Made by a program: the position numbers and the translations under genes. Positions 10,486-18,287 of a stretch of DNA of 36,456 nt are shown in pieces (position 1 is the first letter of the stretch; every line of letters begins with the position of its first letter). Source of the DNA: Candidatus Choladousia intestinigallinarum (lineage in GTDB: Bacteria > Bacillota > Clostridia > Lachnospirales > Lachnospiraceae); contig DVGR01000205.1 in the NCBI GenBank assembly GCA_018712605.1, forward strand, positions 1 through 36,456. Direction: 5' to 3'. The notes beneath the pieces were generated by a model. That model did no database searches, was not told the origin of the DNA, and saw only the letters and a list, made by a program, of their open reading frames with translations.

Positions 10486-10571
10486 CTTTCACCCTCCTGT
10501 TACGTGTTATATGAACGATATAGGTAATTATATACTATCCGATGAAAAAAGGAAACTGCAATTCCAGCATT

Positions 10572-10760
10572 TTGTCAAAAATTTAGCAACAGTTCAGCCA
10601 TCCGGTATGACACGGGATGATTTATGCTCGCATAAAAATCAGACCGTGCCACACCGGATGAGCTGAGCGCCCGAAGATGAGCAAAACAGCGGCGGCAGCC
10701 GCAATTAGCACGGAGTGCGGTTTTGCGAATGGCGCGGGCTGAACTGTTACAAAATTTACA
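10572..10760 (-). repeat. Structured intergenic repeat, long copy (multibranch RNA predicted on the minus strand)
   Basis: Outer inverted repeat GCAACAGTTCAGCC / GGGCTGAACTGTTAC; inner stems CCGGTGTGGCACGG/CCGTGTCATACCGG (fully paired with GU on the minus strand) and GCAAAAC/GTTTTGC; 28/31 identity of one end with 18248-18278. Confidence 0.8.
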
Positions 10761-10781
10761 GCCAAATCGAAGGTCTCAAAC

Positions 10782-12779: not shown

Positions 12780-12890
12780 CAAAAAAAGACCATCCTCCGG
12801 ACTCTCTTTTGCCCAGACGGTCGGCCTCTCATACGCTGCACTTCCTGTGGTCACTTCCACTTCCGTCAGTCATGCAGCTTCCTACACCAT
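12780..12890 (-). ncRNA. ZTP (pfl motif) riboswitch with expression platform
   Basis: Minus strand GCATGACTGACGGAAGTGG...GACCACAGGAAGTGCAGCG...GCCGACCGTCTGGGC, matching pfl conserved elements; upstream of purO-purH. Confidence 0.92.
12781..12825 (-). terminator. Riboswitch-controlled intrinsic terminator
   Basis: GACCGTC(tgGGC)...(GTCC)GGAG-GATGGTC followed by TTTTTTT on the minus strand; the 5' arm is the aptamer's CCGUCUGGGC. Confidence 0.82.
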
Positions 12891-18213: not shown

Positions 18214-18244
18214 CCCCTATTCAGCATTTTTCTAAACTTTTACA

Positions 18245-18287
18245 TATCAGTTCAGCCATCAGGGATGGCACGGGATGAACTGATACA
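18245..18287 (-). repeat. Structured intergenic repeat, short copy
   Basis: TATCAGTTCA...TGAACTGATA arms with CCATC/GATGG inside; CAGTTCAGCCATCAGGGATGGCACGGGATGA is 28/31 identical to 10590-10620. Confidence 0.75.

Follow-up and report, generated by a model that had tools for sequence, protein, structure and literature searches.

The region between purH and pgm in Candidatus Choladousia intestinigallinarum holds a strongly folding repeat, which raises the question of whether it is a mobile element, a signal at the end of the purH transcript or a non-coding RNA. The window, i.e. the whole stretch of DNA analysed, comprised 36,456 nt of contig DVGR01000205.1. The original prediction had placed a structured repeat of ~190 nt at 10572-10760, and the stems it named are present in the sequence. 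A structured repeat does lie there, but its boundaries had to be redrawn, as the ends and the flanking duplication read from the sequence define a unit of 165 bp at 10586-10750 plus the 8-bp duplications. The outer stem is likewise real, and its nature is that of a 14-bp terminal inverted repeat (GYAACAGTTCAGCC/GGCTGAACTGTTAC), with one mismatch pair between the two ends of the window copy; the plus strand of the element starts with GCAACAGTTCAGCC and finishes with GGCTGAACTGTTAC. The sequence AAAATTTA appears on both flanks as a perfect 8-bp target-site duplication. No open reading frame of at least 80 aa was found inside the 165 bp, and the element thus carries no transposase gene, as is the case for miniature inverted-repeat transposable elements (MITEs). 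Its edge lies 31 nt after the purH stop codon, instead of the ~20 nt first given, and both purH and pgm are on the minus strand, the plus strand of the element being antisense to them. Moreover, the second domain is closed in the comparative structure by a GCGCC/GGCGC stem (10667-10671 with 10731-10735), which replaces the CCCG/CGGG stem previously proposed. The features are the following:

10578-10585, no strand: left target-site duplication, 8 bp, AAAATTTA (read from the sequence; 8 bp is the rule in the family)
10586-10750, plus strand: whole element, 165 bp (ends, duplication, copies and homologues; the strand is the one that matches RF01699 and bears the conserved non-Watson-Crick motifs)
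10586-10599, plus strand: left terminal inverted repeat, GCAACAGTTCAGCC (consensus GTWACAGTTCAGCC)
10600-10659, plus strand: domain 1, long hairpin with apex g(CTCG)c (double compensatory changes at base and apex)
10667-10735, plus strand: domain 2, GCGCC/GGCGC stem followed by ATGAGCA (10677-10683) against TGCGAAT (10724-10730) with tandem G.A (alignment and covariation)
10689-10702, plus strand: small hairpin GCGGC(GGCA)GCCGC within domain 2 (stem-loop analysis)
10708-10718, plus strand: small hairpin GCAC(GGA)GTGC within domain 2 (stem-loop analysis and covariation)
10737-10750, minus strand: right terminal inverted repeat, GTAACAGTTCAGCC as read on that strand (end comparison)
10751-10758, no strand: right target-site duplication, 8 bp, AAAATTTA (read from the sequence)
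18244-18286, plus strand: 43-bp remnant of the same MITE family, ATATCAGTTCAGCC...GGATGAACTGATAC, with both ends kept, the interior almost gone and no clear duplication (end comparison)

To begin with, the repeat is not confined to this locus, since a count of copies in the host and related genomes found further ones. Four full copies, 91-100% identical to that of the window, and roughly a dozen partial ones are present in the host genome. Perfect 8-bp duplications were found around one of these copies (C270, ATATTTTT on both sides), around a copy reduced to the hairpin (C147, CAACAAAT) and around an element with the same ends and an unrelated interior (C241, GAAAGTCT). Furthermore, the exact end GTWACAGTTCAGCC was present in 93 out of 397 Lachnospiraceae genomes (78 of 334 genera), reaching 154 sites per genome, while a control with the reversed pattern gave almost no matches in the same 397 genomes. 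The last 26 bases of the element, allowing up to three mismatches, occurred in 26 of the 397 genomes, with 53 sites in G345 alone. With ends in roughly a quarter of the sampled genomes and up to 154 sites in each, the repeat family is a main driver of insertions in these bacteria, which are a dominant family of the gut.

The duplications were then assessed in 40 elements from nine genomes other than the host. Exact 8-bp duplications flanked 23 of them, compared to 0.6 expected from random re-pairing of the flanks, and at least seven of the eight flank bases matched in 30 elements (1.0 by random re-pairing), with no exact duplications of 5-7 or 9-12 bp among the 40. The ten remaining elements, with six or fewer matching bases, would be expected among older or rearranged copies. 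The duplicated sequences were AT-rich (84% vs. 62% in the flanks). Moreover, an element of only 49 bp showed the same ends and a perfect duplication; the ends thus seem to be nearly sufficient for mobility.

In the two closest relatives that share this gene order, G022 and G019 (87% and 84% identity to the purH DNA of the host, respectively), the site is empty. The gap between purH and pgm measures ~103 nt in the former and ~101 nt in the latter, compared to 297 nt in the host, and the insertion is absent from both relatives, the difference being made up by the element, one 8-bp copy and ~21 nt of extra sequence. The region upstream of pgm, including a TATAAT-like box, is conserved beyond the insertion. 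Consequently, the window copy is a recent insertion between the two genes, acquired in the host lineage, and a processing signal at the end of the operon, one of the roles initially considered, is disfavoured because the closest relatives share the junction without the element. The ~21 nt of extra sequence, which separate the element from the purH stop codon (10759-10781), lack a counterpart in the two closest relatives, and the insertion does not explain them.

Another of the possibilities initially raised, a mobile or MITE-like element, thus proved right: the element is a MITE, i.e. a non-autonomous DNA transposon, found across many Lachnospiraceae, with multiple copies, shared terminal inverted repeats, empty sites in relatives, and exact duplications of 8 bp and of no other length from 5 to 12 bp, which settles its mobility. 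Searches of a literature library found no paper describing this repeat family. Among known elements, MITEAba12 is similar in being short and geneless, in having terminal inverted repeats and duplications of fixed length, and in being thought to be moved in trans (PMC6382973). It differs from the present element in its known parent insertion sequence (ISAba12), its 16-bp ends and its 9-bp duplications (PMC6382973), as against 8-bp duplications, no parent found and a conserved, covarying interior of several domains.

The complete account, in which a non-autonomous transposon moved by a transposase in trans inserted a copy between purH and pgm while retaining a conserved interior, is held with high confidence. 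According to it, the transposase would recognise the 14-bp GTWACAGTTCAGCC ends and the element would be joined to 8-bp staggered cuts in AT-rich DNA, generating the 8-bp duplication; the window copy landed between purH and pgm in the host lineage, and folding of the plus strand when single-stranded, at a replication fork or in a transposition intermediate, may be what mainly keeps the interior. The enzyme is probably a DDE-type transposase. The loci examined yielded no autonomous copy or parent with matching ends; however, there are other bacterial MITEs whose parent is not known, and the element can still belong to the class. As for the enzyme family, IS66-family insertion sequences generate 8-bp duplications, and the ends of the ISBst12 group within this family start with GTA/GTAA, as do those of the element. 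An IS66 end given as an example, GTAACCGTCCGGGCA (PMC12888890), resembles the MITE ends. An IS66/ISBst12-like enzyme is therefore tentatively put forward as the best fit to the GTA start and the 8-bp duplication. However, IS66 was not accepted as a proven partner, since the ends differ and the genomes rich in the MITE have few IS66 copies: none of the IS66 loci examined held a copy bounded by GTWACAGTTCAGCC, and the stretch read around the IS66 of the host genome showed no such end. Two other candidates were discarded. A pair of ends 2,159 bp apart in G024 spans ordinary genes (including adk and map, judged by eye) and represents two separate MITEs instead of an autonomous copy, and the frames next to unpaired ends in G091 look like ordinary genes (by eye).

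The question of why the interior is conserved was addressed through its fold. The minus strand taken as RNA (10565-10770) gave −88.9 kcal/mol (z = −7.6), a value matched by none of 200 shuffles, and DNA folding gave z-scores of −6.8 for the plus strand and −7.3 for the minus strand. An alignment of 17 window-type elements, four from the host genome and 13 from seven other genomes, showed a covarying fold. A structure of 42 pairs left 95.9% of the cells paired, a percentage that leans towards the structure because the latter was guided by a consensus prediction from the same alignment. Double changes appeared in 13 of the 42 pairs and in 45 cells, although kinship among the aligned sequences inflates such counts. 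None of 500 shuffles scored as high on any of these three measures, and the signal collapsed when the partners were slid. The double changes, distributed over all six helices, are stronger evidence than the percentage paired. Moreover, the plus strand as RNA is predicted to fold into the comparative structure, while the predicted fold of the minus strand departs from it. It should be noted that covariation alone cannot tell a functional RNA from a folded transposon.

The non-Watson-Crick positions were used to compare the strands. On the plus strand, ATGAGCA opposite TGCGAAT forms tandem G.A/A.G between Watson-Crick pairs, whereas the minus strand shows T.C mismatches there; both halves are intact in 16 of the 17 aligned elements (G129 departs). 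The perfect plus-strand stem-loops comprised 18 of the form c(GNA)g, nine c(GNNA)g and 14 g(CNNG)c, counts that are not independent because the copies are related, and none had the c(TNC)g or c(TNNC)g form expected of the reverse complement. All the c(GNNA)g loops listed have a pyrimidine in the third place, so none of them is a GNRA RNA tetraloop. The copies of RF01699 follow the same trend. In DNA, triloops of the GNA type are stable. The names d(cGNNAg) and d(gCNNGc) for the motifs are taken from the title of a paper by Nakano et al. 2002 (cited in PMC2984261). Two positions of the long stem had been taken as a sign of selection as minus-strand RNA. They are indeed G-U on the minus strand and A.C on the plus strand in the window copy, but this is not general: in the long hairpins of 13 homologues (window copy not counted), nine G.T and five A.C were found on the plus strand, and hence such pairs do not mark the minus strand as selected. 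That reading is consequently not supported, in view of both kinds of mismatch in the homologues and of the tandem G.A and GNA/GNNA loops conserved on the plus strand. Overall, these plus-strand features favour a fold of single-stranded DNA over RNA, the argument from the loops being indirect.

A search of Rfam returned a genuine match to RF01699 (Clostridiales-1 RNA), which Weinberg et al. 2010 (PMC2864571) include among their candidate RNAs, with Clostridiales and the human gut as its source. The plus strand of the window element aligned with model positions 1-166 from end to end, with 22.6 bits, short of the gathering cut-off of 48 bits. Seven homologous copies also matched at full length and in the same orientation with 31.6-39.7 bits, all below 48, while two elements with unrelated interiors (L474 and L494) gave no match. 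The element is therefore treated as related to RF01699 and not as a member. RF01699 itself had 48 copies above the cut-off in the host genome, and matches in 55 of 100 sampled family genomes and in none of 14 control genomes. It shares with the element the outer stem, the long hairpin and the ATGAGCA/TGCGAAT core in the same order, together with its nature as a dispersed high-copy repeat. However, its ends are of the GATGCC...CATC or TTTAC types instead of GTAACAGTTCAGCC, it bears a further GGATTG/CAATCC hairpin that the element lacks, and its direct repeats were of 7 bp in the small set tested, compared to 8 bp. The copies in the host (L113-L152) fall into types that differ by their ends. Exact 7-bp direct repeats flanked four of eight copies of the GATGCC...CATC type, which suggests transposition in this small sample. 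These results cast doubt on RF01699 as a family of sRNA genes. In addition, one type in the host resembles IS200/IS605-type elements: inverted ends are lacking, the hairpins are subterminal, and the boundaries read TTTAC (left flank) and GTTTAC (right end). A palindromic module, CTCCGCTTCGGTCGGCGCTAAACG...GCCACTGGCAC..AGCGCC, was observed both in host RF01699 copies (L132-L138) and in the GTTACAGTTCAGCC elements of other species (L212 and L213), so the interiors look like exchangeable modules. Other Rfam matches, to miRNA and fluoride families, were rejected as sub-threshold and typical of long hairpins.

Regarding the interior, the leading explanation, put at somewhat below an even chance on indirect evidence, is that it is conserved mainly since its plus strand folds as single-stranded DNA. 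A broader proposal is more speculative and rather unlikely: that a strand-specific module, consisting of the ATGAGCA/TGCGAAT core and the hairpins capped by GNA/GNNA and common to elements with different ends and duplication lengths (Clostridiales-1 RNA included), acts as single-stranded DNA, for instance by tying transposition to replication forks. If true, a family curated as 'sRNA' would in fact represent a DNA structure that belongs to mobile elements. The elements lend themselves to testing whether transposition is affected by strand-specific folding of single-stranded DNA.

Conservation as a folded transcript is the less probable explanation. The corresponding reading, a mobile element carrying a functional plus-strand RNA similar to RF01699, is similarly doubtful: the covarying fold, the folding of the plus-strand RNA into that structure and the filing of the related RF01699 as sRNA speak for it, but a simple scan showed no promoter-like site, the tetraloops are GNNA with a pyrimidine third and never GNRA, the strand is antisense to purH and pgm here, and mobility extends to elements that share the ends but have an unrelated interior. 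Still less probable is that the interior is functionless palindromic filler spread by mobile ends, its covariation arising from regeneration of the palindromes by repair or replication template switching. Many unrelated palindromic interiors do occur in MITEs with the same ends, and template switching, which can create compensatory changes in long perfect hairpins, could yield those seen here; however, the tandem G.A and the GNA/GNNA loops are non-palindromic and conserved always on one strand, and the core is found again in RF01699 copies, whose ends are different.

The reading of the original prediction, in which RNA from the minus strand would serve processing or termination where the purH transcript ends, is very improbable. 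The position 31 nt after the purH stop codon, with both neighbours on the minus strand, and the two G-U pairs of the window copy agree with it, but the closest relatives have the junction without the element, the non-standard pairs seen in homologues do not point to the minus strand, domain 2 holds the sole terminator-like site, which is weak, and the predicted minus-strand fold departs from the comparative structure. Finally, a REP-like single-strand element of the IS200/IS605 or RAYT type moved by a Y1 transposase, suggested by the strand-specific hairpins and by some host RF01699 copies with TTTAC at both boundaries and no inverted ends, can be practically dismissed for the window family, whose near-perfect 14-bp inverted ends and 8-bp duplications contradict it (Y1 enzymes are not known to make target-site duplications), but may hold for some RF01699 copies.

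Two further observations were made. The viral contigs scanned for the ends gave mostly single chance matches and three short MITE-like pairs; one IMG/VR contig filed as viral (L304) has at 2671-2808 a 138-bp element that shares the ends and is flanked by a perfect duplication of 8 bp, CACTGTAG. Within the window, a ZMP/ZTP riboswitch (RF01750, 56.9 bits) was identified on the minus strand at 12804-12883, upstream of the purine gene cluster that contains purH.
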